Below are positions 5,653-60,194 of a stretch of 64,000 bases of DNA, piece by piece. The stretch is from Salinigranum rubrum. Lineage in GTDB: Archaea > Halobacteriota > Halobacteria > Halobacteriales > Haloferacaceae. Position 1 is the stretch's first letter; each line of letters opens with the position of its first letter. The translations under genes were made by a program, and so were the position numbers. The DNA is taken from assembly GCF_002906575.1 (NCBI RefSeq), contig NZ_CP026309.1, positions 3,286,001-3,350,000 of the forward strand. The letters are read 5' to 3'. Under the pieces are notes generated by a model. That model was given only the letters and a program-made list of their open reading frames with translations. It searched no databases and had not been told where the DNA came from.

Positions 5653-5787
5653 TAGTTCGCCGGTGAAGAGCCACCAGGCAACCGACTTCGGGTGTGTGGT
5701 TCCGACAGGGCTTTCGTTGGTCTCCGAGTCCCGCGACTCGTGTTCGCACAGGCGAGGGCGTCCGAGTCGCCGACGGCGGGGTCGCTA

Positions 5788-5830
5788 GGATGAGGATGCG
5801 GTCTCACCGCGCCCGTGTGTCGCGCGGTTC
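5788..5830 (-). repeat. End fragment of dispersed intergenic repeat
   Basis: About 40 bp match the right end of the element at 59092-59415: the 18 bases CACCGCGCCCGTGTGTCG are identical, and the neighbouring TGAGGATGCGGT resembles TGTGGCTGCGGT there. Only one end is recognisable, so this is a remnant or solo end. Confidence 0.6.
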
Positions 5831-12545: not shown

Positions 12546-12569
12546 CCGACCGCACGAGTGAACGGGGGT

Positions 12570-13781
12570 ATGGCTTCGCTCCCGGTCGAGATTCTCTTCG
12601 GACTCTATCTGGGAATCCTCACGGGGATCATCCCGGCGCTGGTGTCGGGCGTCCTCGGCTTCCTGTTCAAATACGTCACGAACGTGACCATCCCCGGGCT
12701 CGGCGTCGTCGTCCTCTCGCTCGCCATCGCGGGCGCGAACGGCGGACTCATGGCGCTGAACGATCCGACCATCATCGGCTCCGGCGGGCGGTTCGTCGTC
12801 GCGATCATCGTCGTCCTGATGCTCTCGCTGTACGCGCACAGCCAGGGCGACAAACTGGGCGCGTCGGTGCCGCGACGGCTGAACCTCCGGAAGCTCACGG
12901 CGCGGACGCTCAACACGGACGTGGTCGAACTCGTCGGCGGGCGCGGTCAGGTCCGCGTCACCGTCTCCGGCGACGTCGGCGACATGGAGGGCTACCCCGC
13001 CCTCCCCGCGGACCTCCGCACGAGCATCCGCGACGGCGAGTGGACGTTCCCGGTCGACGTCCCGCTCGTCGAACTCGAAACCCGGTTCGCCGACCGCCTC
13101 CGCTCGGAGTTCGACCTCGCCGACGTGTCGGTGCGTCTGGACGAGAACGCCCGCGCGACTGTGAGCGCCGCACCGCCCGTCGGTGCGCTCTCGAAACGCA
13201 TCCCCGCCGGCAAGCGTGCGGTGTCCGTGAACGCGCTGCTGCCGACCGGCCTGGCAGCCGGCGACGACGTCGACGTCGTCGCCGGCGACCGAACCGTCTC
13301 CGGAACCGTTCTCAGCGTCGCGGGCGGGTCGAAGGCGGCGAGAGAGTCGGCCACGACCGACGGCGGGGTCGACACGGACGCGCCGGCACCCGCCTCGGCT
13401 TCGACCGCACCGGGCGGAGACGGCCGCGTCACGCTCGCGGTCACTCGACCGGACGCGGAGACCCTTCTCGGCGTGTCGTCGGCCGAACGACTCGTCGTCA
13501 ACTCCCACGGCGTCCGCCGCGAGTTCGAACTCATCTCGCTGCTCCGGCGCAGCGGCCGCCGGTTCCGCACGCTGACGGTGCGTGAAGGCGGTCTCCTCGA
13601 CGGTGTCACGGTCGGAGAGGCGGCCGTCCGCGACAGCTACGGCGTCGCCGTCTTCGCCGTCCGCCACGAGGGGACGTGGCGGATCGCACCGCGCGGCGGA
13701 CAGGCCGTCGCCGCCGGCGACAGCCTCGTCGTCGTCGGGACGCGCGAGGCGCTGGGCGCGTTCGAGGAGGCGGTTGCGTGA
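12570..13781 (+). CDS. Membrane-anchored TrkA-C (RCK-C) protein, copy 1
   Basis: 403 residues. Three hydrophobic segments (about 5-25, 35-60, 68-88) anchor a cytoplasmic region. A middle soluble domain (about 100-240) contains the block shared with copy 2, then a variable Ser/Ala/Thr linker (about 250-285), then a TrkA-C/RCK-C domain (about 290-400) whose pattern FELISLLRRSGR...LTVREGG resembles ligand-binding RCK-C modules. It likely senses a ligand such as a cyclic dinucleotide or NAD(H) and regulates K+ flux with the neighbouring channel; this role is inferred. The ATG at 12570 is supported by the promoter at 12539. Confidence 0.8.
   Translation: MASLPVEILFGLYLGILTGIIPALVSGVLGFLFKYVTNVTIPGLGVVVLSLAIAGANGGLMALNDPTIIGSGGRFVVAIIVVLMLSLYAHSQGDKLGASVPRRLNLRKLTARTLNTDVVELVGGRGQVRVTVSGDVGDMEGYPALPADLRTSIRDGEWTFPVDVPLVELETRFADRLRSEFDLADVSVRLDENARATVSAAPPVGALSKRIPAGKRAVSVNALLPTGLAAGDDVDVVAGDRTVSGTVLSVAGGSKAARESATTDGGVDTDAPAPASASTAPGGDGRVTLAVTRPDAETLLGVSSAERLVVNSHGVRREFELISLLRRSGRRFRTLTVREGGLLDGVTVGEAAVRDSYGVAVFAVRHEGTWRIAPRGGQAVAAGDSLVVVGTREALGAFEEAVA
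12921..13135 (+). repeat. 215-bp block identical to 14252-14466
   Basis: Read base by base, this stretch of copy 1 is identical to the corresponding part of copy 2, synonymous positions included, while bases on both sides differ. The first mismatches are at 12920/14251 and 13136/14467. A second identical run of about 91 bp lies at 13221-13312 and 14550-14641. Confidence 0.85.
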
Positions 13782-13900
13782 GCCACCCGACGCCTGCGGT
13801 CGGGGCTCGCCGCCGGCCGCTCGGTGCCCGAGACGCGTCGGTTCGAGAGCCCCGTGGAGGGGGTCGGAACTGGTATCCCGACGGCGCGAGTTGTTCGACT

Positions 13901-15114
13901 ATGGCTTCGCTGCCTATCGAGGTGCTCTTCGGACTCTACCTGGGCATCCTCACGGGGATCATTCCCGCGCTGGTGTCGGGGATACTCGGGTTCGCCTTCA
14001 AATACATCACGGGTGTCACCGTTCCCGGCTTCGGTGTCATGGTGCTGGCGCTGGCCATCGCGGGCGCGAACGGCGGACTCATGGCGCTGTCGGACCCGGC
14101 ACTCATCGGCTCCGGCGAACGGTTCGTCGTCGCGATCATCGTCGTCCTGATGCTCTCGCTGTACGCGCACAGCGAGGGCGACAAACTCGGTGCATCGGTG
14201 CCGCGACGGCTGAGCCTCCGGGAACTCACCGAACGGACCCTCAACACGGATGTGGTCGAACTCGTCGGCGGGCGCGGTCAGGTCCGCGTCACCGTCTCCG
14301 GCGACGTCGGCGACATGGAGGGCTACCCCGCCCTCCCCGCGGACCTCCGCACGAGCATCCGCGACGGCGAGTGGACGTTCCCGGTCGACGTCCCGCTCGT
14401 CGAACTCGAAACCCGGTTCGCCGACCGCCTCCGCTCGGAGTTCGACCTCGCCGACGTGTCGGTGCGCCTGGACGAGAACGCCCGCGCGACCGTGAGCGCC
14501 GCCCCGCCGAGCGGCGCGCTCTCGAAGCGCGTCCCACCCGGTAAGCGCGCGGTGTCCGTGAACGCGCTGCTGCCGACCGGCCTGGCAGCCGGCGACGACG
14601 TCGACGTCGTCGCCGGCGACCGAACCGTCTCCGGAACCGTCCTGAGCGCGAAGACGAACGAGACGAGGGCGGAGACGGTAGCGACCGACGGGGGGTCGAC
14701 GCGGCCGCGTCGGCACCGGTGACCCCGGTCACCCCGACGACGGCGGGCGGAGACGGCCGCGTCACGCTCGCGGTCAGCCGACCGGATGCGACCGCCCTCC
14801 TCGGCGTGTCGTCGGTCGACCGCCTCGTCGTCAACTCCCACGGCGTCCGCCGCGAGTTCGAACTCATCTCGCTGCTCCGGCGGGGTGGACAGCGCTTCCG
14901 GAAGCTCACCGTCCGTGAAGGGGGAGCGCTCGACGGCGTCACGCTCGGCGGGGCGGCCGTCAGGGACAACTACGACGTCGCCGTCCTCGCCCTCCGCCAC
15001 GAGGGGACGTGGCGGGTAACGCCACGCGGGTCACAGTCGGTCGGGGCCGGCGACGACCTCTTCGTCGTCGGCCGACCGGACGCGCTCACCGCCTTCGCGG
15101 AGGTGGTCGCGTGA
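13901..15114 (+). pseudogene. TrkA-C protein copy 2, broken by a frameshift
   Basis: Paralogue of the preceding gene. Frame 1 (13901-14722, 273 residues) has the three membrane segments and middle domain; the TrkA-C domain continues in another frame (14719-15114, 131 residues, GTG start). The break is at a G6 run, 14690-14695; a seventh G would restore a 404-residue protein collinear with copy 1. The upper frame's stop overlaps the lower GTG start as GTGA, so coupled translation into two chains is also possible. I favour a base-calling error or recent frameshift, as two other genes here share the pattern. A further GTGA overlap joins it to copy 3. Confidence 0.78.
14252..14466 (+). repeat. 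215-bp block identical to 12921-13135
   Basis: Partner of the identical block in copy 1; see there. The spacing between the two starts is 1331 bp. Confidence 0.85.
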
Positions 15115-21954: not shown

Positions 21955-22878
21955 ATGCGTCGCCGTCCCCACCTCCTGTTCGTCGTCGCCGCGCTCGCGT
22001 TCGGGACGGCGTTCGTCGGCATCAAGGCCGGCGTGGCGACGCTCCCGCCCGTCCTGTTCGCCGCGCTCCGGTTCGACCTCGGTGCGGTGCTTCTCCTCGC
22101 CGTGGTCTTCCTGCGACGGGGTGTCGGCGCGTCGCTGCCGCGGACTCGGGGGGACCTCCTCGGCGTCGGCGTCGCCGGCGTCTTCCTCGTCACGCTCAAC
22201 GGCGTGTTGCTCTTCGTCGGTCAGCAGTTCACGACGAGCGCCGCCGCGGCCGTCATCTACGGCGTCGTCCCGCTGGCGACGGCGCCGTTCGCCGTCGTCG
22301 TCCTCCGGGAGCGCCTCTCGCCCGTCGGACTTCTGGGGCTCGTCGTGGGGTTCGCCGGTCTGGTCGTCGTCGTCCAGCCGTCTCGTGGGGTGCTCGATGG
22401 CTCGGGCGTCGGCGAGGCGCTCGTCGTCGTCGCGGCGCTCTCCGTCGCCCTCGGGAGCGTCCTCCTCAGACGGCTCCGCCCGACGGTCTCGTCGCTCGCG
22501 CTGACCGCGTGGGCGATGGTCGTCGGCGCCGTCTGTTCGCACGCGGTGAGCCTCGCGCTGGGCGAACCGCTCGACGTGACCTGGACGCCCGTCGCCGTCG
22601 CCGCCGTCGTCTGGCTCGGAACCGTCTCGACCGGCTTCGCGTTCCCGGCGTACTTCGCGCTCATCCGGGAGGCCGGGCCGGTGAGGGCGAACCTCGTCGC
22701 CTACGTGGTTCCCATCGTCGCCGCCGTCTCCGGCGCGCTCGTCCTCGGGGAGTCCATCGCCGTGACGACCGCCGTGGGCTTCCTCGTCGTGCTCTGTGGG
22801 TTCGCGTTGCTCGAACACGAGGCGCTCCGGCGGGACGTGCGGGAGGCGCTGGACCGGGACCGGACGGCAGACCGATGA
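21955..22878 (+). CDS. EamA-family (DMT) transporter
   Basis: 307-residue ten-helix drug/metabolite transporter. The two EamA halves are residues about 3-140 and 150-290, each with five hydrophobic segments; the pattern FxALRFDLGAVLLL in the first half and GPVRANLVAYVVPIVAAVSGALVLGE in the second are family signatures. The substrate is unknown. The frame is open for 53 residues upstream but those are charged; the ATG at 21955 begins at the first helix. The stop at 22876 is followed directly by a tandem repeat. Confidence 0.88.
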   Translation: MRRRPHLLFVVAALAFGTAFVGIKAGVATLPPVLFAALRFDLGAVLLLAVVFLRRGVGASLPRTRGDLLGVGVAGVFLVTLNGVLLFVGQQFTTSAAAAVIYGVVPLATAPFAVVVLRERLSPVGLLGLVVGFAGLVVVVQPSRGVLDGSGVGEALVVVAALSVALGSVLLRRLRPTVSSLALTAWAMVVGAVCSHAVSLALGEPLDVTWTPVAVAAVVWLGTVSTGFAFPAYFALIREAGPVRANLVAYVVPIVAAVSGALVLGESIAVTTAVGFLVVLCGFALLEHEALRRDVREALDRDRTADR

Positions 22879-22969
22879 GACCGGTCGTCCGATAAGACCG
22901 GATAAGACCGGTCGTCCGATAAGACCGGATAAGACCGGTCGTCCGATAAGACCGGATAAGACCGGTCGT
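22879..22969. repeat. 27-bp tandem repeat, 3.4 copies
   Basis: Three perfect copies of a 27-base unit start at 22879, 22906 and 22933, plus 10 bases of a fourth. The unit contains GACCGGTC, its own reverse complement, and ends in GACCGGATAA. The array starts at the base after the transporter stop codon and ends three bases before the stop of the convergent aldo/keto reductase gene, filling the convergent gap. There are no spacers, so this is not CRISPR. Confidence 0.95.
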
Positions 22970-43147: not shown

Positions 43148-43278
43148 ATCGGCCCCACGAGGAGGCCGTTCTTAAATTGGGTTCATCGCTGTCGCGGGTG
43201 GTCGACGTGTGGGTGTCGTACGCGGTCGAGTCGCACTGGGAGTCATGACGAACGGCGCTGACGGGACGACGGCCGAGC

Positions 43279-43573
43279 GGTACACGGACGCAGTGAAGCC
43301 TCGCCCACCGAAGCAACTCCGTTGCTTCGAGCCGTTCGCTCGTTTCACTCGCGAAGACCCCCCAGCCGACTCCCTCGCTCGCTTTGCTCGGTCGGTCGCC
43401 CCTCGCGCGCGAGTCACGCGGCGAGATCGCGTGACGTCACGCACCACCGCCCCGTTAGTGGCGGTGCGGTCGGCGCGCGGGAGCGAGTGAGTGAAACGAG
43501 CGAGCGGCGCGCGAGGGTCGGCTCGCGCCTCCGTGCGCGAGCCACCGGCTGGGGAGGAGTGAGGCTGCGGTCC
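43279..43573 (-). repeat. Dispersed intergenic element, copy A
   Basis: Read on the minus strand, 43401-43573 lines up with 59110-59280 of copy B: CGCAGCCTCACtCCTCCCC, GGCTCGCGCACgGAGGCGCGAGC and CTCGCCGCGTGACTC are shared (lower case marks differences). The left part keeps GGTACACGGACGCAGTGA (43279-43296), which matches the flank of copy B. Contains a GAAGCAAC hairpin that copy B lacks. Confidence 0.75.
43310..43328. repeat. Perfect hairpin in copy A
   Basis: GAAGCAAC-TCC-GTTGCTTC, an 8-bp stem with a 3-base loop, inside the repeat element. Confidence 0.7.
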
Positions 43574-43845
43574 ATCACCCTAGTAACGCCGCAGTCTCCC
43601 TGACTCAGCGAGACTGTCGGCAGCGCATTGTCTCCCACCCTTCGGTACGTACGTTCTCTAGACGAACCAGTCCTCATCAAACCGGACGAACGTTCAAGTA
43701 CCGAAACGCGGCCACCACGACGCGTGACGTAACGACGACCGCACGGCTGCTGCGGGTGCCCGGCACGACGCCGTGCGGGAGGGGAGTGCCGGCTGTCCGC
43801 CTGATCGAACGGAGTCCCGAGTGAAGCACTCGACCCGAACGCGAC

Positions 43846-47836: not shown

Positions 47837-48172
47837 GGCGTTGCGGAGGGTCGAAGCGTGTGACCGGCGTTTGGGTGGCGGACGCGAAAACGCACCCGGC
47901 GTCCGTATCGGAGAGGGCGTCGGCCAGAGGCAACGAGGCGGTGACCGAACGGTACGCGGGCGCGGTGTCCGCCTCACGCCTCTCCAGTCGGTCGCTCGCG
48001 CACGGAGCAACGGAGTCGCTTCGGCAGGCGAGCCCACACCGCCCTGGCGACCGCGCGGTCTCCACCCACGTAACTCCGAACTCGGTCACGGACACGAGAG
48101 GACGTAAGCGACGCCCACGCTCCGCACGTCCACGTTTCCGAACGACACAGCGCGAACGGTTCGGACGATAAC
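47837..48172. other. Intergenic region with repeat-family end
   Basis: 336 bp without a gene, containing copy C of the repeat family (47950-48003). The rest has no recognisable structure. Confidence 0.55.
47950..48003 (+). repeat. Dispersed intergenic element, copy C (one end)
   Basis: CGGTACGCGGGCGCGGTGT then GCCTCACGCCTCTCC and GGTCGCTCGCGCAC match the left end of copy B (GTACACGGACGCGGTGA, GCCTCACACCTCCCC, GATCGCTCGCGCAC). No clear second end follows. Confidence 0.6.
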
Positions 48173-58252: not shown

Positions 58253-58933
58253 TCAGAACTCCTCGACCGCTTCGAGTCCCGCGTCCGTGATCTGGAACGT
58301 CGCCGTCTCGCCCGCCGGCTTCGACCCGTGCTTTTCGAGGGTGGCCCGCCGTTTCCCTCCCCGGAACCGGTCGAGGCGGAGGACGACGCCCGTCCAGTGT
58401 TCGAGCGTGTTCCCCCCCAGCGGGCGCACCCGGTCGGCGTCGGGGTCGGTGAACACCTGGTTCGTCACCAGGACGGCGAGGTCGTGCCGACGGGCCAAAG
58501 AGAGCAGGTGGGTGACCTGTCGGGCGACCCGACGGAGCGCCTCGCCCTCGTCGCCGTCGTATCGCTCCAGTCGGTAGAAACCCGTCGCCGAGTCCAGCAC
58601 CACGAGGTCCGCGCGCTCGGCGAACTCCGCGACGTCGCGGACCGCCTGTTCCTGTTCTTCGAAGTCGTGGGCGTTCGAGACGATCACGCGGGAGGCGACG
58701 TCGTCGACGTCGCCGACCGCCGCGGCGACCTGCTCGAACCGCGCGGGCGACAGCCCCTCGGTGTCGACGTAGACGGCGAAGCCGTCGACCGCCGCGCGGA
58801 CGGCGGCACAGAGCGCGACGTTGGTCTTGCCGGCGGCTGGCGGGCCGTACACCTGGGTGACGGTCCCGCGTTCGAGCCCGCCACCGAGGAGGTCATCGAG
58901 CGGCTGACAGCCGGTCGGAAGGGGGTCGCTCAC
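58253..58933 (-). CDS. radB: DNA repair and recombination protein RadB
   Basis: 226 residues, GTG start. RecA-fold ATPase core with Walker A GPPAAGKTN (30-38), Walker B LVVLDSATGF, and no N-terminal helix-hairpin-helix domain, which separates RadB from RadA. RadB is a RadA paralogue that assists homologous recombination in euryarchaea. It is convergent with the DUF4013 gene (13-base gap). Confidence 0.93.
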   Translation of the reverse strand: MSDPLPTGCQPLDDLLGGGLERGTVTQVYGPPAAGKTNVALCAAVRAAVDGFAVYVDTEGLSPARFEQVAAAVGDVDDVASRVIVSNAHDFEEQEQAVRDVAEFAERADLVVLDSATGFYRLERYDGDEGEALRRVARQVTHLLSLARRHDLAVLVTNQVFTDPDADRVRPLGGNTLEHWTGVVLRLDRFRGGKRRATLEKHGSKPAGETATFQITDAGLEAVEEF

Positions 58934-59020
58934 ACCGTGAGGTAGCGTCGCACCCCGATTTAATCCCTCGCATCCGGCGTGTGTCGCGGTCGGGGCGAGC
59001 GAGGGGGAGAAATAGAGAGG

Positions 59021-59077
59021 GTTTGAGTGTGCGAGTGATCAAGAGTTTGAGAGTCTGAGAGTGCGAGTGATCGAGAG
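59021..59077. repeat. Two near-copies of a 25-bp motif, period 32
   Basis: GTTTGAGTGTGCGAGTGATC at 59021 and GTCTGAGAGTGCGAGTGATC at 59053 each continue with (A/G)AGAG and differ at three of 25 bases. Confidence 0.75.
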
Positions 59078-59091
59078 AGACAGTAACCGCG

Positions 59092-59415
59092 CAGTACACG
59101 GACGCGGTGACCCGCAGCCTCACACCTCCCCACCCGATCGCTCGCGCACAGAGGCGCGAGCGCCCCCTCGCGCGTTCACTCGCTCACTTCGTTCGCTCGT
59201 TCGTCGCGCGCCGACTACTAACGTAGTACGGTGGCGCGTGCCGTCACGCGGTCTCGCCGCGTGACTCACGCGCGAGGTCTTCACGGACGCAGTGAGTGAA
59301 GGCTTGAATCGACGGAGTCGCATCAGCGGATGACCCAGTGACCGAACAGAGTGAGGTCACGAAGGAATCGGCTGGGGAGGGTGTGGCTGCGGTTTCACCG
59401 CGCCCGTGTGTCGTG
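59092..59415 (+). repeat. Dispersed intergenic element, copy B, with terminal inverted repeats
   Basis: Left end CACGGACGCGGTGA then CCGCAGCCTCACACCTCCCC (59112-59131) is inverted at the right end: reading 59412 to 59368 on the minus strand gives ACACGGGCGCGGTGA, then ACCGCAGCC and CACCCTCCCCAGCCGA. About 320 bp, no ORF of note. Copy A (43279-43573) is its inverted homologue; C and D are single ends. The form is that of a non-coding miniature element (MITE-like), but no target duplication is clear. Confidence 0.75.
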
Positions 59416-59634
59416 TGGTCACTCCGCTCTTCGTGACACCGCCACCAACGACGCTCTTCCGGACACCGTCACTGACGACTCGTCACCAGATACTGCTCAG
59501 TTCGCTCACCGTACTGCACGCCTATCGCAGATGAAACGAGGGGACGACCGAGACGAGCCGAAATCACCCCTCCGATGCCCACTCAGACGACCGTCACACC
59601 GCGGCGAAACCGACATGAACGACCGTTACTAATT

Positions 59635-59696: not shown

Positions 59697-60194
59697 ATGA
59701 GCCAACAGCCAGTACCGAAGACGACGAAGAAACAGTCCGGTCTGAACAGCGTCCTCGTGGCCCTCGGCCCGGAGGACGAAGAGCGCGTGACGCGACTCGC
59801 CGAGGAGGCCATCGACATCGCCGGCCCCGCCGGGGCGACAGTCGTCATCACGCACGTGTTCACCCGCGACGAGTTCGAGTCGCGCGCCGACGCGCTCGGC
59901 TTCGACCGCGAGATGTCCGAGGTCGACGCCGACGACGTCGCCGTCCGGTACTCGCCGGTGCGTGCCCTCGCCGCGAAACTCGACGAGGCGGGCGTCGACT
60001 ACGAGGTCCGCGGCGCGGTCGGCCACTACGGCGAGGAAGTCGTCAAGGTCGCCGACGAACTCGACAGCGACCTCGTGCTGGTCGGCGGACGCAAGCGCTC
60101 GCCCACGGGGAAGGCCGTCTTCGGGAGCGTCGCCCAGGAGGTCATGCTCTCGGCGCCGTGCCCGGTGACGTTCGTCCGCGGAGACACGAAGTAA
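59697..60194 (+). CDS. Universal stress protein (UspA family)
   Basis: 165 residues. A polar N-terminal extension (1-16) precedes LNSVLVALGPEDEERVTRLA; the ATP loop reads LVGGRKRSPTGKAVFGSVAQEVM with the conserved G-x9-GS end. One domain only. Unlike the other Usp genes it has an upstream palindrome (59635-59654), so it is probably regulated by a dimeric factor. A T5 run, 59-ish to 47 bp after the stop (60237-60241), could end transcription. Confidence 0.9.
   Translation: MSQQPVPKTTKKQSGLNSVLVALGPEDEERVTRLAEEAIDIAGPAGATVVITHVFTRDEFESRADALGFDREMSEVDADDVAVRYSPVRALAAKLDEAGVDYEVRGAVGHYGEEVVKVADELDSDLVLVGGRKRSPTGKAVFGSVAQEVMLSAPCPVTFVRGDTK

Follow-up and report, generated by a model that had tools for sequence, protein, structure and literature searches.

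REPINs have been proposed to move as inverted doublets (PMC3116915), and Y1 enzymes act on single-strand folds (PMC6006769). Among haloarchaeal repeats, SMR-A and SMR-B of Haloquadratum walsbyi are ~80-110 bp long and have inverted ends unrelated to known transposons; they cause no target duplications, copies of one type are commonly >95% identical, and their mobilisation was called enigmatic by the authors (PMC3119063). SMR-A targets PATEs/IS605 elements (PMC3119063). The Haloquadratum PATEs are short, palindromic relatives of IS605-type transposons; they carry variable DNA outside a near-terminal palindrome and have no inverted ends (PMC3119063).

The element analysed here lies between radB and a UspA-family gene in the window, which is the whole 64,000-nt stretch of Salinigranum rubrum DNA that was analysed. 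Like REPINs and BIMEs (PMC3116915, PMC6006769), it is an intergenic inverted doublet of a short palindromic unit that occurs in many copies, also as singlets, and is predicted to fold as a single strand. It differs from them in that its unit is ~110 nt long with two hairpins, conserved unpaired linkers and replaceable hairpin sequences, that it has neither a RAYT nor a GT[AG]G foot, and that its host is an archaeon. Judged by the published description, the nearest haloarchaeal class would be the SMRs, which likewise have inverted ends and no transposase found. No transposon with the element's ends was seen in 78 S. rubrum loci and no target duplication was seen by eye in the aligned ends of these old copies. 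However, the element measures ~140-460 bp, has structured internal units and skewed aprons, and its copies are at most about 86% identical. PATEs share with it a haloarchaeal host, short length, palindromes and variable outer DNA, and would be set apart, again by their published description, by the inverted ends found here. With MITEs it has in common terminal inverted repeats, short length, lack of coding content, an interspersed distribution and empty sites, whereas no autonomous partner (78 S. rubrum loci) or target duplication was seen, structure is conserved beyond the ends, and the related units of other genera have no inverted ends.

An Rfam 15 search of the element returned one sub-threshold snoRNA match and nothing at the gathering score, and a search of 32 kb of Halorubrum loci gave no match. 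The element is not known as a named haloarchaeal one, in agreement with the lack of an Rfam family and with a full-text search of open-access papers, from which the linker sequence was absent. The repeat family is apparently undescribed so far in haloarchaea.

Anatomy of the element

Comparison of 46 ends of homologous copies fixed the true extent of the element at 59086-59419 (334 nt). An earlier note on this DNA had located the element correctly, with inverted ends and no ORF filling it, but had placed its ends 4-6 nt short on each side (59092-59415). The inverted ends start with ACCGCGCAGTACACGGACGCGGTGACCCGCAGCCTCACACCTCCCC at 59086 and their inverted partner ends at 59419; they form imperfect inverted repeats of ~50 nt (ACCGCGCAGTACACGGACGCGGTGA-CCCGCAGCCTCACACCTCCCC and the inverted partner) with small indels, because of which an ungapped repeat finder missed them. 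The overlapping ORFs were short and lay in several overlapping frames, and the element is filled by no real ORF. A single DNA strand of 59086-59424 folded at -109.9 kcal/mol, compared to -78.3 +/- 4.4 for shuffled sequences (z = -7.2). The features of the locus are as follows.

58253-58933, minus strand: radB, one flanking gene
58986-59085, no strand assigned: left apron, C-poor and G-rich, with a tandem duplication of 8/16/32-nt periods (GC skew 0.64 inward, TRF score 94)
59086-59419, no strand assigned: complete element, an inverted dimer (ends from the 46-end comparison, dimer from model R2)
59086-59110, plus strand: left outer terminal block ACCGCGCAGTACACGGACGCGGTGA, which most S. rubrum copies conserve at both ends
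59111-59217, plus strand: unit 1, with linker CCGCAGCCTCACACCTCCCC, hairpin A, CCCTCGCGCG, second arm and CGCGCC tail (R2 match)
59139-59162, plus strand: hairpin A of unit 1 (CGCTCGCGC-ACAGAG-GCGCGAGCG), 9 bp, with covariation across 20 copies
59207-59238, no strand assigned: tail-to-tail junction hairpin CGCGCC-GACTACTAACGTAGTACGGT-GGCGCG, inner part variable
59228-59393, minus strand: unit 2, inverted, with an extended hairpin-A region (R2 match)
59243-59265, minus strand: hairpin C of unit 2 (GTCACGCGG-TCTCG-CCGCGTGAC on the plus strand)
59395-59419, minus strand: right outer terminal block (reverse complement ACCACACGACACACGGGCGCGGTGA), from comparison of the ends of homologous copies
59420-59520, no strand assigned: right apron, C-rich on the plus strand and hence G-rich inward, with a 27-nt tandem duplication (GC skew 0.40 inward, TRF score 75)
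59697-60194, plus strand: UspA-family gene, the other flanking gene

The basic unit consists, in order, of an unpaired linker CCGCAGCCTCACRCCTCCCCAGCC, hairpin A, a short linker (C)CCTCGCGCG, a long hairpin C and a tail GCGCGCCACCGC. The covariance model R2, whose 30 source units all came from other genera, mostly Halorubrum, matched both halves of the element over its full length of 1-111: unit 1 at 47 bits (E 3.5e-9) and unit 2 at 45.2 bits (E 9.1e-9). As these matches lie in opposite orientation, the inverted repeats correspond for the most part to the conserved linkers of two units that meet at their tails; the description of the ends as terminal inverted repeats was therefore right about their inversion but incomplete. 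The tail-to-tail junction was found again in 24 S. rubrum copies, mostly folding as a hairpin. Pairs of units in plus-then-minus order within ~100 nt were present at 22 S. rubrum loci, and the reverse order at none; these 22 tail-to-tail pairs have the arrangement used to define REPINs, in which two inverted units with a spacer lie in intergenic DNA. An element made of a tail-to-tail inverted dimer of a ~110-nt unit is well supported by these results. According to the fold predictions, the two joined units make up a long, imperfectly palindromic sequence, one strand of which can adopt a multi-armed structure.

Copies, empty sites and skewed aprons

BLASTN of the element against its own genome, part of the check that the earlier note had proposed, revealed 69 matches, and R1, a covariance model of the element's left end, gave 101. 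The multicopy, dispersed, non-coding family that the note had suggested is therefore not due to chance. Combined, there were 106 matches at about 84 places, some of the weak ones possibly false, and a family of roughly 80 copies is well supported. All matches were on the 4.25-Mb chromosome contig, the five other contigs (0.72 Mb) having none; under uniform insertion this has a P of about 2e-6 and is unusual for a freely moving element. The copies most similar to the element in the window were ~82-86% identical over most of a unit (blastn), giving no sign of very recent movement. Copies elsewhere in the window, which had also been reported, comprised one full copy and two end-like fragments.

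43272-43597, minus strand: second full copy, also an inverted dimer, with R2 matches at 43467-43571 (minus) and 43359-43450 (plus); its orthologous site is empty in the same-genus genome G001
47942-48059, plus strand: partial copy whose end was matched by R1 (R1 E 1.6e-4; nhmmer E 3.5e-9)
5747-5830, minus strand: weak partial copy (R1 E 9.4e-4; nhmmer E 2e-4)

Across 78 S. rubrum loci there were 30 compact pairs of ends, spaced 139-457 nt apart, and no pair 480-3300 nt apart, so that a longer, protein-bearing version was not seen. The elements were intergenic, with 21 convergent, 33 tandem and 21 divergent neighbour pairs compared to 34, 94 and 49 in the control. A terminator or promoter role was considered from gene orientation, and the neighbours showed no clear preference.

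The radB-uspA site was empty in G001 and G003, two species of the genus that share the radB-uspA gene order (G001 RadB is 96% identical), as was anticipated in the earlier note for a mobile element. A 464-kb block of the S. rubrum genome was for the most part colinear with contig 2 of G001. This block held about 20 copies or fragments, compared to two in the 400 kb of G001 examined, and about 13 sites of the block were empty in G001. Both G001 copies were truncated, at positions matching copies in S. rubrum. From these comparisons, the copies probably spread after the split from the G001 lineage, and parsimony favours insertion in the S. rubrum lineage over loss in the relatives. The ends of the aligned copies, which are old, showed no evident target duplication by eye; the flanks are not alignable base by base to the empty sites.

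The apron, a stretch of ~100 nt beyond each end, was C-poor and G-rich when read inward. An inward excess of G over C was present at 95 of 96 unique ends, with a mean skew of 0.31; it was positive at 46/46 ends and, in a set of 53 ends from other loci, at 98%, whereas 300 control flanks of intergenic regions had a mean of about 0 (sd 0.14). Gene orientation was rejected as a source of the skew, which was equal whether the neighbouring gene pointed towards or away from the element. Strong tandem duplications were found in 12/96 aprons compared to 2/354 controls (p = 3e-7). No common motif was found in the aprons, which resemble one another only in their composition and in being locally duplicated in tandem. 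Immediately beyond the ends, 12 nt (59074-59085 in the window and the equivalent positions at 96 ends) were nearly free of T on the inward strand and had no other consensus. In relatives the skew was weaker (6/7 ends, mean 0.13, a small sample). Comparison of insert length with the empty sites pointed to an excess of about 120 nt, but the gaps of the controls were positive as well (p = 0.06), which is weak evidence for aprons arriving with the element. The aprons offer a measurable footprint of a process acting at the ends.

The unit in other genera and the turnover of its hairpins

Searching with R2 revealed the unit in 34 of 116 genomes and in 12 of the 46 genera sampled across the class, with at least 32 matches in most Halorubrum genomes searched, making it an abundant haloarchaeal repeat. 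Halorubrum was placed in the same family as the host of the window in the genome collection used. Nearly all units of Halorubrum and its allies were singlets (40 loci), whereas two Haloparvum loci held tail-to-tail pairs about 120 nt apart. The outer terminal block was absent from the Halorubrum unit, which is abundant although it lacks inverted ends.

Most Halorubrum loci (L119-L198, e.g. L120, L123, L139) carried a longer palindromic repeat, AAAGCCCCAG...CTGCCCCTTTGAGTCCC(A/G)CCC, directly 5' of the unit, and the unit was often followed by TTTATAAAT-like AT-rich DNA; the unit is therefore part of a larger mosaic there. At one locus of another genus (L063), a related unit was followed by GTGGGACTGAAAGGGGC...GGGGCTTT, a palindromic repeat that resembles the Halorubrum companion repeat.

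Across the copies the linkers and the pairing are conserved and the hairpin sequence is not. An alignment of hairpin A from 20 S. rubrum copies showed 94% of cells paired and eight of nine pairs changed on both sides, with a covariation score of 0.527 compared to 0.117 after shuffling (0/500 shuffles as high). The 27-pair structure of the 30 units from other genera had double changes at 19 pairs, again with 0/500 shuffles as high, although both sets consist of paralogous copies, whose relatedness may inflate such counts. Because of this, orthologous sites were compared: two intergenic sites were followed across Halorubrum species, and units were parsed in 17 species at site 1 and 13 species at site 2, nearly all in the same orientation, the other species having no unit at the threshold used. 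Between species, linker 1 was 94-95% and the tail 91-96% identical, whereas the arms of hairpin A were just 52-54% identical and formed hairpins of 21 to 75 nt, each of which paired.

The 5' hairpin half of one species or copy was then joined to the 3' half of another and the folding energies were compared. Native hairpins A at site 1 had a mean of -20.3 kcal/mol compared to -12.1 for the hybrids, and native hairpins C -15.5 compared to -11.2; the corresponding means were -18.5 and -11.0 at site 2, and -17.2 and -10.9 for hairpin C of the S. rubrum copies. In each of these four comparisons 0/20000 permutations reached the native value. Hairpin C occurred in 21 different versions among the S. 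rubrum copies. Hairpin A had 102 different sequences at 119 unit places, 11 of which recurred at more than one place, including a 30-nt hairpin found at seven. Replacement of whole hairpins is a simpler reading than stepwise change, both being possible. These sites form a natural series in which structure was kept while sequence was replaced at one site, so that selection and cassette exchange can be tested against each other directly.

Proposed mechanism and alternative explanations

The reading we prefer, to which we give a probability of roughly 0.55, is that the family is a non-autonomous interspersed repeat defined by its structure, which is copied in trans, has its hairpin cassettes swapped and leaves the aprons as scars. 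A trans-acting enzyme would recognise the linkers and folded hairpins and copy the dimer into intergenic sites, in a manner similar to REPINs and probably through a folded single strand. After insertion, whole hairpin cassettes would be replaced when units with linkers in common recombine or are copied onto one another, and the strand skew and tandem duplications outside the ends may be scars left where strands were processed repeatedly, or forks arrested, at the folded element. As to a source of the enzyme, the Halorubrum loci had no recurrent neighbouring transposase, only small clusters, and those inspected looked like orthologous host genes. Viral contigs searched with two patterns contained no matches and so gave no indication that viruses carry the repeat. 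A bolder version, in which the family is a new kind of archaeal repeat whose enzyme reads the constant unpaired linkers, actively exchanges the hairpin cassettes and leaves ~100 nt of convergent skew per end, is put forward tentatively and is doubtful.

That units have long been retained at the same sites in Halorubrum, with their orientation unchanged, would agree with a cellular function too. The strong covariation, the conserved linkers and these shared orthologous sites in many Halorubrum species would all be expected of a structured RNA or regulatory element (e.g. terminator, processing, antisense) kept by selection, with species differences arising by recombinational loss and gain rather than transposition. 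However, gene orientation showed no clear preference, Rfam gave no match, and about 13 sites in a single 464-kb block were empty in the close relative G001, which makes this explanation unlikely. We consider a conventional MITE, derived by deletion from a DDE transposon whose transposase would move it via 25-50-nt terminal inverted repeats, to be quite unlikely too: such an origin would account for the short, non-coding, interspersed copies, their inverted ends and their empty sites, but the 78 S. rubrum loci held no longer element with the same ends, target duplications were not evident, the Halorubrum homologue is abundant though it has no inverted ends, and a decaying MITE would not keep its hairpin structure while the sequence changed.

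There is little chance, in our view, that the family spreads and changes passively, by replication template switching and gene conversion at palindromes alone, with no dedicated enzyme and no function. Hairpin cassettes that recur at unrelated places and tandem duplications beside the ends agree with such dynamics, which nevertheless leave unexplained both the near-invariant linkers and the presence at new sites of entire units similar in length. Very little chance is given to a true REPIN, that is REP doublets mobilised by a genome-encoded RAYT (Y1 HuH), even though intergenic inverted doublets, singlets in other genera and hairpins correspond to the published definition (PMC3116915). The sole Y1 protein of the genome is an IS200-like ORF of 133 aa with no unit within 1.5 kb, Y1 was absent from four Halorubrum genomes with at least 32 units (G016, G058, G071, G088), and in place of a GT[AG]G foot the conserved linker ended in CCTCCCCAGCCTC in 30/30 aligned units. 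The earlier suggestion of a MITE- or REP-type family was thus borne out as regards a dispersed repeat with inverted ends, but membership of either class is not established, because neither an evident target duplication nor, in 78 S. rubrum loci, an autonomous partner was found, the identity between copies does not exceed ~86%, and RAYT/Y1 is not associated with the copies.

Other repeats were also seen in the window. A 27-nt unit (GATAAGACCGGTCGTCCGATAAGACCG) was present in three tandem copies at 22874-22969, and two long stretches within 12569-15034, about 1331 nt apart, shared 83-85% identity and resembled a tandem gene duplication.
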